Source: Pontibacillus marinus BH030004 = DSM 16465
GTDB lineage: Bacteria > Bacillota > Bacilli > Bacillales > BH030062
Length of the DNA stretch: 64,000 nucleotides
Assembly (NCBI RefSeq): GCF_000425225.1
Contig: NZ_AULJ01000001.1
Location: 1 to 64,000 of the forward strand
Direction of reading: 5' to 3'
This document shows positions 22,219-29,150 of this stretch, one piece after another. A program made the translations under genes and the position numbers. Below the pieces are notes generated by a model, which was not told the DNA's origin, ran no database searches, and saw only the letters and a list, made by a program, of their open reading frames with translations. Numbering within the stretch: the first letter of the stretch is position 1; the number at the start of each line of letters is the position of its first letter.

Positions 22219-22327
22219 GAAATCAATCATAAAATTTCATAAACAATCAAATTTAATCAGAAATCATTTTGTTTATCTGTCAAAAACGGTCAGATGGAGG
22301 AGAAGGAGTGCTGGCAAATCAGGGGGC

Positions 22328-22565
22328 GCTCGCATTTGGAGTGGGGCCGCTCGGAAATGAGGGGCGGGCGCTCGTATTTGGAATGGGGCCGCTCGCAAAT
22401 GAGGGGCGGGCGCTCGTATTTGTAGTGAGGCCGCTCGGAAATGAGGGTGGGCGCTCATATTTGGATGAAACCCGCTCGCAAATCAGATTAGGTGCTCATA
22501 TTTGCACCGAACCCGATCAAAAATCACGATAAGTGCTCATACCAGGATCTTCCCGCTCGCAAGAA
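22328..22565 (+). repeat. Array A: 42-bp repeats with 21-bp half units (GCTCGCA / GCTCGGA core)
   Basis: Six tandem units start near 22328, 22370, 22412, 22453, 22494 and 22535. Each unit holds two cores about 21 bp apart: GCTCGYATTTG then GCTCGSAAATG (or variants). The first three units are well conserved and the last three decay (GCTCATATTTG). The two long open frames over this array (22269-22532 plus, 22273-22458 minus) arise from the repeat period and have no ribosome-binding sites; I treat the array as non-coding. Same repeat type as the arrays at 23860, 27307 and 28878. Confidence 0.85.
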
Positions 22566-22902: not shown

Positions 22903-22944
22903 GTGCCTGCCCCCTACCGCTTTAAAGCAGTGGGGGTCAGGCAC
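22903..22944. repeat. 42-bp palindromic repeat, copy 1 (GTGCCTGMCCCC type)
   Basis: GTGCCTGCCCCCTACCGC, TTTAAA centre and a complementary GTGGGGGTCAGGCAC half form a long imperfect palindrome. The second copy at 23779-23820 follows the same TlpA-like gene, so the two bracket it. Palindromes with GTGCCTGACCCC arms are scattered in many Bacillaceae genomes. Confidence 0.75.
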
Positions 22945-23000
22945 CACATTTGAATTTAATTCCCATCGAGAAGTAAACTGAAGGAGAAAGGTGGGATACT

Positions 23001-23771
23001 TTGTTATTACAAAAACTTGATAATGTTGAACTTCTTGATTTAGATGGTAATACAGTGTCCACTGATGATTTTCGTGGGAAAAACACGTTAATTTTCATGT
23101 GGGCGTCTTGGTGACGATGCCGCCAGCAGTTGCCTGGATGGCAGCAAGTATATGAGAAGTATAAAGATGAAGGATTTGAAATTTTATCTGTGTCCGTAGA
23201 TATCCAAGGGGCAGAGGTCGTGAAGCCGTATGTAAAAGATACGACATTTAAGACGGTCATCGATTCAGAGAACAAATTCGCAAATATGTTTGGGTTTAAA
23301 ATTGTTCCGAATGGGATCTTCATTGATCAGGACGGAACGATTCGCTTACTTAAGCAAGGATTTAAAGTGGATGATGATGACCACGTCGAAGCGGTTCGCA
23401 AGCTCATATTTGGAGAGGTAGAAAAGGTAGAATTCGAGGATACCTACTATGATCCAGCCGATTCATCTACGAACATGGAGAAGCAACTTGCTCAAACCAA
23501 GTTCAAATTGGGCATGGAATACTACAACAATGGGAAGAAGGATGAGGCACTGAAAGAACTCGATGAAGCCTTACTCCTTGATACAGAAAACTTCCTAATT
23601 CGAAAACAAAGATGGTACATTCGTTACCCAGAAAAGTTTTCACCTACAATTGATATTGAATGGCAACAAAAGCAATTAAAACAGGAAAAAGAAGCGGAAG
23701 CACAGCAAAAAGGAGACATGATTTGTGGCCCAGAAGGCTGTGTGATCCCAGGAACTTCGAATGATGAATAA
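23001..23771 (+). pseudogene. TlpA/ResA-like thiol-disulfide oxidoreductase interrupted by TGA at the active site
   Basis: From TTG 23001 (after AGGTGGG) the frame encodes a thioredoxin-fold protein: NVELLDLDGNTVSTDDFRGK, then IFMWASW, then TGA (23112-23114), then R-C-R-Q-Q-L-P-G-W and the rest of a TlpA domain (VPNGIFIDQDGTI, cis-Pro site) to residue about 150. A C-terminal extension has a TPR-like helix pair and ends CGPEGCVIP. The TGA is where W-C-x-x-C should have its first cysteine, and one residue of the loop is missing. A 3-bp deletion best explains both. Selenocysteine is possible but less likely. An internal TTG (23130) could restart without the active site. Confidence 0.75.
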
Positions 23772-23778
23772 GGTCTAG

Positions 23779-23820
23779 GTGCCTGACCCCCATCGCTTTA
23801 AAGCGGTGGGGATCAGGCAC
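23779..23820. repeat. 42-bp palindromic repeat, copy 2
   Basis: GTGCCTGACCCCCATCGC, TTTAAA centre and GCGGTGGGGATCAGGCAC form a near-perfect palindrome right after the TlpA-like stop codon. It could act as its transcription terminator (followed by TTTTT), and it matches the copy at 22903-22944. Confidence 0.75.
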
Positions 23821-23859
23821 TTTTTAAGGCACTTTTTAATGCAGTGGGGAGGAGCCTAT

Positions 23860-24170
23860 TGAGCGGTTTGACCTGGATTATGATCGGGTTTTTGTTTTTG
23901 TGATTGCTTTTAGGCATTTGTGAGCGATCTGGGCAATATATGAGCGGGTAGTATGAATTATGAGCGCATATAGGATTATTTGATCGCCCCAGCCAAAAAT
24001 ATGATCGAAGTAGATGGCCAGGACCGCCTGAAAGTTGCTCGCAATCGCCTGCATTCAGCTCTGCACCGCCTGAACATGAAGTCAACCCGCCTGAATCCGC
24101 AGCCAGAGCGCCTGAAAAGCTCAAGCTACCGCCTGAATCCCATCCCGGATCGGCCCGAACCCTATCACGA
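23860..24170. repeat. Array B: cores spaced 20-21 bp, TGAKCG block then CGCCTGAA block
   Basis: TGAGCG, TGATCG or TGATTG begins at 23860, 23881, 23901, 23921, 23941, 23961, 23981 and 24002. Then CGCCTG(AA) begins at 24025, 24046, 24067, 24088, 24109 and 24130, with CGGCCCGAA at 24151. Spacing is 20-21 bp throughout although the sequence between cores is not conserved. TGAGCG is the complement of the CGCTCA core of array A, so the first block is in reverse orientation. It fills the gap between convergent genes. The open frames there (23813-24175 minus, 23980-24324 plus) look spurious. Confidence 0.8.
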
Positions 24171-24184
24171 TCCACATCTCACAA

Positions 24185-24214
24185 AAAAACCTGCACCCTC
24201 ACCGGGCACAGGCT
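24185..24214 (-). terminator. Terminator of the tetR-type gene
   Basis: On the minus strand CCTGTGCCCGGTGAGGGTGCAGG folds with CCTG/CAGG and CCC/GGG pairing and is followed by seven T's, right after the TetR stop codon. Confidence 0.8.
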
Positions 24215-24216
24215 CA

Positions 24217-24837
24217 TTACTCAACAAGTCCATTCCAAAACAAATCAATAATATGTTTGGCAGCTTCTTCAGTCGTGTCAAATATCGTATTTCCGTTGGC
24301 ATCGTGATAGTGGCCAGCTTTTAATAAGGAAATGAAGCTATGTGCCACGAACTTCGTATGAACCTCTCGGATTTCGCCTTTTTCGATAGACTCATTAAAG
24401 GCTTCTTCCAGAGCTTCGTACATATTTTCTTCAGCTTGCTGCACCTTTTTCATTTGCTCCGTTGAAAGAGCATTTTTCATCTCGCGAGTGAAGCCATCCA
24501 TATCCATGTCGCCTACTGCTGAAAGGTGAGCCATGGTTACGTCATAGATACGCTCCTTAAGAGGCTTTTCAGCATGAAGCAACTTGTCCATTTGCTCGCG
24601 AATGCGTAGCATCATTTGAACCATGGTTTCGGTAAAGAGGTCACCTTTACTTCCAAAATAGTAGTAAACCGTCGCTTTTGTGACATTGCAATGATCAGCA
24701 ACATCATCAACCGAAACTTCCTGGTATCCTTTTTCTAAAAATAGCTGAGCAGCTGATTGGAGTATAATTTGATTTGTAGGTTGTTTCTTTTCATTTTGCC
24801 GTGGTCGCCCAGGTGAGCGATTGCTTTTCGCTTTCAA
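24217..24837 (-). CDS. TetR-family transcriptional regulator
   Basis: The roughly 206-residue protein has an N-terminal TetR helix-turn-helix (IILQSAAQLFLEKGYQEVSVDDVADHCNVTKATVYYYFGSKGDLF, about residues 22-66) and a helical ligand-binding domain. TTG 24837 is chosen because AAGGAGAG precedes it; the longer frame to 24954 runs through an interspersed repeat. It is divergent from an MMPL/RND exporter gene about 200 bp away and most likely represses it, in the manner of TetR-YdfJ-type pairs. Ligand unknown. Confidence 0.88.
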   Translation of the reverse strand: MKAKSNRSPGRPRQNEKKQPTNQIILQSAAQLFLEKGYQEVSVDDVADHCNVTKATVYYYFGSKGDLFTETMVQMMLRIREQMDKLLHAEKPLKERIYDVTMAHLSAVGDMDMDGFTREMKNALSTEQMKKVQQAEENMYEALEEAFNESIEKGEIREVHTKFVAHSFISLLKAGHYHDANGNTIFDTTEEAAKHIIDLFWNGLVE

Positions 24838-24867
24838 TATGGGTCTCTCCTTGTGTGTTGTTCCATG

Positions 24868-24936
24868 TCTAGCTCCAGCGCCCAGCAACGAATAGACTTC
24901 CTTCGTTTCTAAACGAGCGCTTCCACTTTTCTTCTT
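24868..24936. repeat. Interspersed repeat of the TCTAGCTCCAGCGCC type
   Basis: The stretch from CCATGTCTAGCTCCAGCGCC through CTTCCTTCGTTTCTAAACGAGCGCTTCCACTTTTCTT resembles a short dispersed repeat that I recall from Bacillaceae genomes. It lies in the tetR/MMPL intergenic region and artificially extends the tetR reading frame. Identification is from memory of the motif, not a search. Confidence 0.45.
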
Positions 24937-25037
24937 AGTGTACCACATCAACACATCGAGGTTATAGTAATCGTTGAAAATTAACTAACCAGTATATATA
25001 ATTAAATAACAGATATAAGGGGGAGGGAAATTCGTAT

Positions 25038-27306: not shown

Positions 27307-27474
27307 TGCTCGCATTTGGGCCCGAGGCGCTCGCAAACGCCGTCCACCCGCTCGCATTTCAGTCCGAGGCGCTCGCAAACGCCATCCACCCGCTCGCATT
27401 TCGGCCAGAGGCGCTCGAAAACGCCCACCGCCAGCTCGCATATCAGCCCGAGGCGCTCGCAAACGCTCCACCCT
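27307..27474 (+). repeat. Array C: 42-bp repeats left of the IS element
   Basis: Four exact-register units start at 27307, 27349, 27391 and 27433. Consensus unit: CGCTCGCATTTCRGYC, then MGAGG, CGCTCGCAAACGCC and a CATCCACC tail (42 bp), with two CGCTCGCA cores 21 bp apart. The unit at 27433 is the same over 33 bp as the first unit on the far side of the IS element (28878). Three overlapping open frames here have no start signals and are products of the repeat. The array begins 45 bp after the MMPL stop codon. Confidence 0.88.
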
Positions 27475-27610
27475 GGTCTTCTGTCAAGAAAGTGGACACG
27501 TCTCTCAGAGGTATCACCTTGTGAATAACGATTAAAATAATGTTTTTTGACAGATCAAATATGACCCTAATTTAGATTAAACTAACGTTAGGGATATATC
27601 AGGGACATAA

Positions 27611-28459
27611 TTAAGCTGAATGAGATGTAACTTTGTCTTCTTTCCTTTTTTCATAATCCCTTTCAAACTGGTTGGGAGAGTAATAATCAATCGTAGAGTG
27701 TTTTCTTTTGGCGTTATAAAAGGTCATAATGTACTTCCATACTTCCCACTTAGCTTCCTCACGGGTTTTAAAGTGGGTTCTGTAGATGAGTTCCTTCTTG
27801 ATCGTTGCGTGAAAGGATTCGATGCAGGCGTTGTCGAAACAGTCCCCTTTTCGGCTCATACTAATCTTTATGTCATGTTCACTCAAACGTTCAATATACT
27901 CATTTGAGGTGTATTGGCTGCCACGATCTGAATGGTGAATCAATTCATCTGACGGTTCTCTCATCAATGTAGCTCGATCTAGCGCTTGTAATGCCAGGTC
28001 TTTCGTTAAAGATTGATCAATACTCCAGCCCACAATTTTACGCGAAAATAAATCCATGACTGTCGCTAAATAAAGCCATCCCTCTGACGTCCAAATATAC
28101 GTGATGTCCGAGACCCACACACGATCGGGAGCTTCTGAGTGGAAGTTGCGCTGTAGTAAATTTGGATAAATGGGGTTACTATGATTCGAGTCTGTTGTCT
28201 GGATATATTTTTTCTTAGGGGTGGCACAAAGGTTCATTTCTTTCATGTATCGGCCCACTGTCTTTTCTGAGATACAAACTCCTAGATCACGAAGTTCATA
28301 AGTAATTCTAGGACTGCCATATACACTCCGATTTTCATGGAAGATCCTGCGAATCATTTTCATGATTTCTTTCTTTTTTTCCTCACGCTCACCAGGCTCA
28401 TTCAATATCCACTTATAGTACCCGCTCGTTGAGACCTTAAGAACTTCGCACATCTTCAC
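27611..28459 (-). CDS. IS3-family transposase OrfB (integrase catalytic subunit)
   Basis: The 282 residues cover an N-terminal HTH_21 region and an rve integrase core. The DDE triad is visible: Asp in VWVSDITYIW, Asp in IHHSDRGSQY and Glu in NACIESFHATIK, with the usual 35-residue spacing before the Glu. In IS3 elements OrfB is made as an OrfAB fusion by -1 frameshifting; the OrfB frame continues upstream without a stop (to P-K-E-V-R-F-N-F-I-F) past the end of orfA, supporting this. No lesion seen, so probably active. Confidence 0.93.
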   Translation of the reverse strand: MKMCEVLKVSTSGYYKWILNEPGEREEKKKEIMKMIRRIFHENRSVYGSPRITYELRDLGVCISEKTVGRYMKEMNLCATPKKKYIQTTDSNHSNPIYPNLLQRNFHSEAPDRVWVSDITYIWTSEGWLYLATVMDLFSRKIVGWSIDQSLTKDLALQALDRATLMREPSDELIHHSDRGSQYTSNEYIERLSEHDIKISMSRKGDCFDNACIESFHATIKKELIYRTHFKTREEAKWEVWKYIMTFYNAKRKHSTIDYYSPNQFERDYEKRKEDKVTSHSA

Positions 28460-28500
28460 GATTCTGTATTCATCACGGTGTTCAAAGATAAAATTAAACC

Positions 28501-28794
28501 TTACTTCTTTTGGTTCATGAAGATGTGCGCCGCCTTTTTTACGATTTCGTTCTCCTCTTCTAACTCTTGGATTCGATCCAGAAGTTCCTTCTCACGCTTT
28601 CTGTATTCACTGGGCGTAACATAATTGAGTTCTTCAGCTTTAGCTTCCTTTTCCTTTCGGTATTCTCGTGTCCACCGATTCATCGTCTTATAAGGAACAT
28701 CCATTTCTCTAGCTACTTCAGTGGCTGGTTTCCCCTCATCAACTACTAGCCTAGCAACATACTGCTTAAACTCATTATCATAAGTTCTCCCCAT
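28501..28794 (-). CDS. IS3-family transposase OrfA (DNA-binding subunit)
   Basis: The 97-residue protein has the HTH_Tnp_1 domain (YDNEFKQYVARLVVDEGKPATEVAREMDV, residues 5-33) and a C-terminal leucine-zipper-like coiled coil (KRRKELLDRIQELEEENEIVKKAA type, about residues 67-90). Near its 3' end the CCAAAAGAAG sequence offers the A-AAA-G slip site that shifts ribosomes -1 into orfB. It starts 70 bp inside the IS right end. Confidence 0.92.
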   Translation of the reverse strand: MGRTYDNEFKQYVARLVVDEGKPATEVAREMDVPYKTMNRWTREYRKEKEAKAEELNYVTPSEYRKREKELLDRIQELEEENEIVKKAAHIFMNQKK

Positions 28795-28877
28795 TTAAAT
28801 ACACGCTCCATTCCTTTATTAGTATTATCATAAGAATTCTCTCTGAAGCGTGTCCACTATTTAGTCTAACTTTAACC

Positions 28878-29150
28878 CGCTCGCATATCAGCCCGAGGCG
28901 CTCGCAAACGCCATCCACCCGCTCGCATTTCGGCCAGAGCCGCTCGCAAACGCCATCCACCCGCTCGCATTTCGGCCAGAGCCGCTCGCAAACGCCATCC
29001 ACCCGCTCGCATTTCGGCCAGAGCCGCTCGCAAACGCCATCCACCCGCTCGCATTTCAACCAGAGGCGCTCGCAAACGCCGTCCGCGCGCTCGCATTTCA
29101 ACCAGAGCCGCTCGCAAACGCCGTCCACCCGCTCGCATCCCTGCCAGAGA
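28878..29150 (+). repeat. Array D: 42-bp repeats right of the IS element
   Basis: Units start at exactly 28878, 28920, 28962, 29004, 29046, 29088 and (partial) 29130. Cores CGCTCGCAT and CGCTCGCAAACGCC alternate every 21 bp. Units at 28920, 28962 and 29004 are identical. Long open frames on the minus strand (28778-29218 and 28872-29171) would encode highly repetitive Arg/Cys-rich peptides and lack ribosome-binding sites; I regard them as artefacts. This continues array C, now split by the IS. Confidence 0.9.

Follow-up and report, generated by a model that had tools for sequence, protein, structure and literature searches.

Opposed rows of short DNA words at a two-turn pitch between genes of Pontibacillus marinus: candidate docking tracks for a DNA-binding protein

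The intergenic array B of Pontibacillus marinus BH030004 is one of dozens of arrays in the host genome in which a short core word recurs at a fixed step, and it is composed of two abutting arrays of opposite orientation rather than of one array with a single phase. That the words differ while the spacing stays suggests docking tracks for a DNA-binding protein. Our preferred reading, to which we assign a probability of roughly 0.45, is that the arrays are DNA-level rows of protein-binding sites of about 8 bp, one every two helix turns, and that they most likely form an architectural nucleoprotein block. The pitch of about two turns and the sharp 8-bp cores amid unlike spacers point to protein sites on one face of the DNA helix, as do the use of both strands, the occurrence in every gene context, and the negative results for RNA structure. 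No description of these arrays was found in the open-access literature. The window, i.e., the whole stretch of 64,000 nucleotides that was analysed, contains the following features.

Positions 22327 to 22559, plus strand: array A, CGCTCR cores at a pitch of 20-21 bp, in a divergent gap next to a gene of the DeoR family; its counterpart in the sister species G002 is smaller and in part different.
Positions 23130 to 23771, plus strand: AhpC-TSA/thioredoxin-fold gene, the upstream flank of array B, with a profile match from position 45 on.
Positions 23779 to 23820, plus strand: terminator-like 21-bp inverted repeat (90% complementary), then a T run, behind the thioredoxin-fold gene.
Positions 23860 to 24007, minus strand: array B1, eight CGMTCA-type cores (TGAKCG on the plus strand, one of them TGATTG) in steps of 20-21 bp; the ortholog in the sister species G002 has colinear cores.
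Positions 24025 to 24135, plus strand: array B2, six CGCCTG(A/C)A cores exactly 21 bp apart, with a decayed seventh to 24158; ortholog in G002.
Positions about 24183 to 24213, minus strand: hairpin resembling a terminator, G-U pairs included, with a T run, located behind the TetR-family gene and recognised by eye.
Positions 24217 to 24954, minus strand: TetR-family regulator gene, the convergent flank.
Positions 27308 to 27473, plus strand: left part of array C, CGCTCG cores at 21 bp in a 42-bp dimer pattern.
Positions 27474 to 28874 (approximate limits), minus strand: IS3-type insertion (HTH_Tnp_1 and rve ORFs) that splits array C and is absent at the G002 site.
Positions 28875 to 29149, plus strand: right part of array C, with 13 CGCTCG cores exactly 21 bp apart; at the orthologous site, G002 has CGCCTG-type cores.

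In array B1, the cores start at 23860, 23881, 23901, 23921, 23941, 23961, 23981, and 24002, i.e., in steps of 21, 20, 20, 20, 20, 20, and 21 bp (mean pitch 20.3). The initial annotation, which had listed eight TGAKCG cores here, was right in number and spacing, but the core at 23901 reads TGATTG and the word is matched by the other seven. Read on the minus strand, the B1 word is CGMTCA, the core kind of array A. In array B2, exact CGCCTG words start at 24025, 24046, 24067, 24088, 24109, and 24130 (mean pitch 21.0); seven cores at exactly 21 bp had been reported, of which six are exact, whereas the last (24151, CGGCCCGAA) has decayed and carries one extra base. When any lag of 8-60 bp was allowed, the best exact 6-mer chain in array B comprised six copies (CGCCTG at lag 21), versus a maximum of three, reached in 3 of 1000 shuffles, in shuffled DNA; the strict TGAKCG chain of B1 numbered five versus at most one in 2000 shuffles. 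Since the B1 motif lies on the minus strand and the B2 motif on the plus strand, two opposed arrays abut at this place. With pitches of 20.3 and 21.0 bp, B1 drifts by about 5 bp off the 21-bp lattice along its length, and the step from the last B1 core to the first clear one of B2 measures 23 bp in the host and 35 bp in G002, i.e., the junction is not phase-locked. The proposal that helical phase is kept across the switch of cores is thus contradicted.

The genes on either side are convergent, as described initially, but terminator-like hairpins separate each of them from the array. The inverted repeat at 23779..23820 has no accepted Rfam match; it is one of two near-copies in the window (22905-22945 and 23779-23820) of the palindrome GTGCCTGMCCCC...GGGGNTCAGGCAC, which is probably a dispersed terminator-like repeat. 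As the AhpC-TSA match begins at profile position 45, the true start of this gene may lie upstream, or else its ORF may be cut short; the copy in G002 is of equal extent. A tandem protein-coding repeat was rejected, because the 20-bp steps of B1 break any reading frame and the ORF that overlaps array B (23813-24175) has no Pfam match. Only about 8 bp are conserved per unit, as opposed to the near-identical repeats of more than 20 bp expected of CRISPR, and no short-range inverted repeat such as the 20-40 bp palindromic unit of REP/BIME was detected inside array B.

The host genome has dozens of places with paired CGCTCR or paired CGCCTG cores. Counted by hand over an open range of 11-41 bp, the whole host genome contains 71 CGCCTG pairs, of which 59 are spaced at 21 bp, five at 20, five at 41, and two elsewhere; 69 thus fall at 20, 21, or 41 bp, versus 2 for the reversed control. 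In G002, CGCTCR pairs number 101 versus 1 for the reversed pattern, with a spacing of 20 or 21 bp among the matches listed. In 424 kb from the host (G000) and 380 kb from G002, a blind scan for 6-mers that recur four times at a lag anywhere from 9 to 89 bp returned chains almost only at 20-22 bp and near multiples thereof, whatever the core (CGCTCA, CGCTCG, CGCCTG, or CGCTCGGGT). The exceptions were a family at 39 bp (with 78) that lies within a coding gene, a single G000 bin at 51-53 bp, and three stray single chains in G002 at lags of 36, 37, and 87 bp. Among chains selected by a spacing of 19-22 bp, CGCTCA arrays prefer a pitch of 20 bp, and CGCCTG and CGCTCG arrays one of 21 bp. An array typically comprises 6-8 sites over about 125-145 bp.

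Array B stands at the same place in G002, where the upstream gene is 97% identical. The alignment to G002 runs without internal gap through B1 and likewise through the six clear units of B2; a 12-bp gap falls at the B1/B2 junction, where G002 retains an additional core (CGCTTG), and another, of 16 bp, where the array ends. Over 33 units in 10 ungapped blocks, identity between host and G002 is 94.4% at core positions 0-5 versus 72.7% at the other 14 positions. In the same units, positions 6 and 7 are 91% identical each, and no phase rotation of the unit reaches the identity of the core. Because the cores are conserved far above the spacers, spacing and core both appear to be constrained, which bears out the earlier interpretation in part: a 20-21 bp step is indeed common to unlike cores in this genome, in genus members, and in other families, but the strong conservation of the cores speaks against selection on spacing more than on sequence. 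Insertions and deletions had also been expected to come in 21-bp steps, and some deletions of 20 or 21 bp do occur elsewhere, whereas the gaps in array B measure 12 and 16 bp and ignore that step, a mixed outcome. Gapped alignments gave 48 gaps inside arrays, many of 1-5 bp and a few of 20, 21 bp, or larger; many of these lengths are not multiples of 20-21 bp, and as they are at least in part confounded by ambiguous alignment of repeats, direct, alignment-free spacings are relied on instead, nearly all of which are 20, 21, or sums thereof. Downstream of an MMPL gene lies a CGCTCG array in G000, interrupted by an IS3-type insertion, and a CGCCTG array of about 7 units in G002; in both genomes the array follows a terminator-like hairpin and precedes a conserved stretch; the kind of core differs at this orthologous site, while place and pitch are unchanged.

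Using ORF-based gene calls, and with G000 and G002 orthologs both counted so that the counts are not fully independent, 62 array clusters outside long ORFs (two within long ORFs were dropped) were assigned to 33 tandem, 21 convergent, and 8 divergent gaps. Convergent gaps are enriched, as they account for 21 of the 62 clusters versus 25 of the 252 gaps in the background (p about 1e-5). Where the gap is tandem, 28 of 33 arrays stand closer to the 3' end of the upstream gene (median distance 69 bp versus 206 bp). The ten flanking proteins are unrelated in function, on which ground a regulon was rejected, and no gene for a linked binding protein was found among them. According to GC skew, the replication origin of G002 lies near 0 and its terminus near 1.95 Mb. 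After six single-pair or mixed places (814530, 899515, 1042642, 1442509, 3434715, and 3531439) were dropped, G002 cores stand in the leading sense at 27 of 30 places (CGCCTG at 12 of 12), slightly above the expectation from gene orientation (p 0.04 against 0.75). In G053, a genome from another family, they stand in the lagging sense in 28 of 35 places (first 100 of 105 matches, grouped by hand). The sign is opposite in the two genomes, and a conserved replication polarity of the Chi or KOPS kind is therefore rejected.

Beyond the host and G002, the same pitch recurs with other words. Among the genus samples, G005 has GGCTCAAG and CGTCAGAAC and G003 has CGCTC and GCGATC at this pitch, while the samples of G001, G004, G006, G007, and G008 (76-140 kb each) gave no chain or one weak chain. 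Arrays were present in 2 of 20 named loci (197 kb). Piscibacillus halophilus carries six TGAGCG words exactly 20 bp apart, and Neobacillus terrae four TGCACG words at 21 bp. Within the order, a run of three CGCTCA words at 20-21 bp was found in 43 of 397 genomes, which represent 24 of 135 genera; order-wide, matches sum by hand to about 1496 versus about 172 for the reversed pattern, and at least nine matches are found in 25 genomes versus 6 for the reversed control. The presence of arrays is patchy within genera. The reversed control (ACTCGC at 20-21 bp) has many matches in G249, G329, G263, G325, and G344, which may be arrays built on a further core. Of 112 genomes sampled outside the order, 3 match the CGCTCA pattern, all from one family and one of them with 14 matches. 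In a check bearing on a possible phage origin, 90 viral stretches matched.

In G053, a leader, TTTACGGTACGTGTT...ACACGTT, stands before CGCTCA cores at 20-21 bp. Of 30 leader matches in its genus, 26 are followed by six cores, three by five, and one by a single core; one mismatch was allowed in this count, all loci were retrieved through CGCTCA matches, and some overlap (L214 coincides with L222). Leader and cores make up a dispersed element in G053 (L222-L241, also L213, L218, L220, and L221), with the same ordered units at several loci. G/C-rich and A/T-rich stretches alternate about every 10 bp in these units (G+C of 0.18, 0.53, and 0.28 after the core). In the host, array types 1-2 show a weak G/C alternation in the second half and type 3 shows little; no G053-like leader was found at host type 1-2 arrays.

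Type-3 arrays, which are 21-bp repeats of CGCTCGGGT, are homogeneous, vary in copy number, and have the strand flipped at two orthologous sites of G000 and G002. They were located at L113, L117, L118, L121, L124, L125, and L131 in G002 and at L134, L136, and L148 in G000, and many are embedded in a dispersed, BOX-like element whose flanks are conserved over about 125 bp on the left and about 70 bp on the right. These flanks look able to form stems. In a coarse test on G000, every 9-mer common to at least four array flanks was a type-3 word, apart from a single T-run word (GGCTTTTTT). In Streptococcus pneumoniae, BOX elements follow the order boxA-boxB(n)-boxC, with modules scattered between genes and a repeated unit in their interior, and the type-3 elements share this layout, with conserved modules on both sides. 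Array B, in contrast, lacks conserved modules at its sides, and all that its units have in common is a core of about 8 bp at a two-turn pitch.

If the arrays are rows of protein-binding sites, molecules bound two turns apart would lie on nearly the same face of the helix and could assemble side by side. The candidate reader would be an oligomerising DNA-binding protein that occupies one helix face every two turns, and the pitch may be kept because the assembly needs it, whereas the core word would change when the specificity of the reader changes or the array is replaced. As its most likely role, the resulting nucleoprotein block behind transcription units would insulate or topologically buffer neighbouring units. 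The homogeneity, copy-number changes, and strand flips of the type-3 arrays count against such a site array and are as expected of repeats without this role; so do the patchy presence, the reversed-control matches in some genomes, and the strand polarity that is not conserved.

The foremost alternative, possible but in our judgement rather unlikely, takes the arrays for functionless BOX-like or minisatellite repeats that spread by slippage, recombination, or mobilisation, with the 21-bp unit as a mutational preference. Type-3 arrays, lodged in a dispersed element with conserved flanks and differing in copy number and strand, fit such an origin, as do the same ordered units behind one leader at several G053 loci and the preference for 3' sides of genes, where insertions are tolerated. 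However, it would leave unexplained that cores are conserved between species far above spacers, that spacers are unlike within one array, that 24 genera have the same CGCTCA core, and that exactly six sites follow the leader in 26 of 30 matches. It is improbable that the arrays are instead gyrase-attracting DNA, in which a helically phased G/C-A/T alternation would render the DNA bendable and let it wrap on gyrase behind genes, like the strong gyrase sites and BIME-2 of E. coli. The location at gene ends and in convergent gaps, the length near 140 bp, and the alternation of about 10 bp in the G053 units agree with this, and the relevant passages of PMC6379681 place E. coli gyrase sites with phased 10-bp G/C variation downstream of operons; yet bendability requires no invariant 8-bp word, the word is nearly invariant, and the alternation is weak in host types 1-2 and slight in type 3.

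It is very improbable that the arrays are att-like or transposon-end-like accessory sites for a recombinase or transposase, or remnants of such elements. The G053 leader has an ACGTGT...ACACGT dyad that adjoins six direct repeats, at about 35 dispersed places, but the host type 1-2 arrays are without such a leader, and orthologous arrays remain in place with their cores conserved. Least probable of all is an RNA-level element, in which transcribed arrays would offer their repeated words to an RNA-binding protein. Regular repeats behind terminators could serve as targets in read-through transcripts, but opposed strands in one gap, terminator-like hairpins bounding the arrays, and the occurrence in all gene contexts argue otherwise; the two-turn pitch of B-DNA has no obvious meaning in RNA, and 20-bp steps fit no codon frame. 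This candidate was rejected on the folding and Rfam results, as the arrays gave no RNA folding signal (z of -1.1 and -0.25) and no Rfam family match.

Plasmid iterons and ParR-type centromere repeats are direct repeats about two turns apart that are read cooperatively by an oligomerising protein. The arrays are likewise direct repeats spaced by whole helical turns, but whereas iterons and ParR repeats form one plasmid locus beside the gene of their own protein, there are here dozens of chromosomal loci and several cores. By analogy, iterons and ParR centromeres would be the nearest known systems in working principle, and E. coli gyrase sites in location and bending. REP/BIME-2 elements of enterobacteria (PMC6379681; PMC3733652) resemble the arrays in being intergenic, repeated, and near gene ends, with gyrase and nucleoid roles proposed, but differ in that REPs are palindromes, whereas the array cores are non-palindromic direct repeats with a fixed helical pitch. 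The intergenic TAACTGA direct repeats of Beggiatoaceae likewise come in many sets of short repeats with no known reader; core and lineage are different, and a two-turn pitch is not described in the relevant passages of PMC4679880.

More tentatively than for the single arrays, it can be proposed that Bacillales chromosomes carry, behind their transcription units, a class of tracks not described before, with about 6-8 sites locked to two helix turns. A family of oligomerising readers, whose word would vary among lineages and even at orthologous sites under an unchanged geometry, would turn them into helix-phased filaments that insulate or topologically buffer the genes nearby. If this holds true, a bacterium would have dozens of dispersed chromosomal platforms, set by helical geometry and a short word, that stand apart from promoters and from known repeat families. 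It would then be possible to test directly whether phased protein filaments behind genes organise transcription and supercoiling, and 24 genera with several words and one pitch would offer a natural series for the co-evolution of protein and word.

A further 21/42-bp family, with GCGTG..GATTCTC words, is found at L064 11309-11671 (G000 C2:91309-91671) and L085 11334-11507 (G002); it is probably intergenic, and its array lengths differ between G000 and G002. Lastly, a NERD-domain gene is flanked on both sides by CGCCTG arrays in L063 (G000 C2:71116-71247 and 72319-72450), and also in G002.
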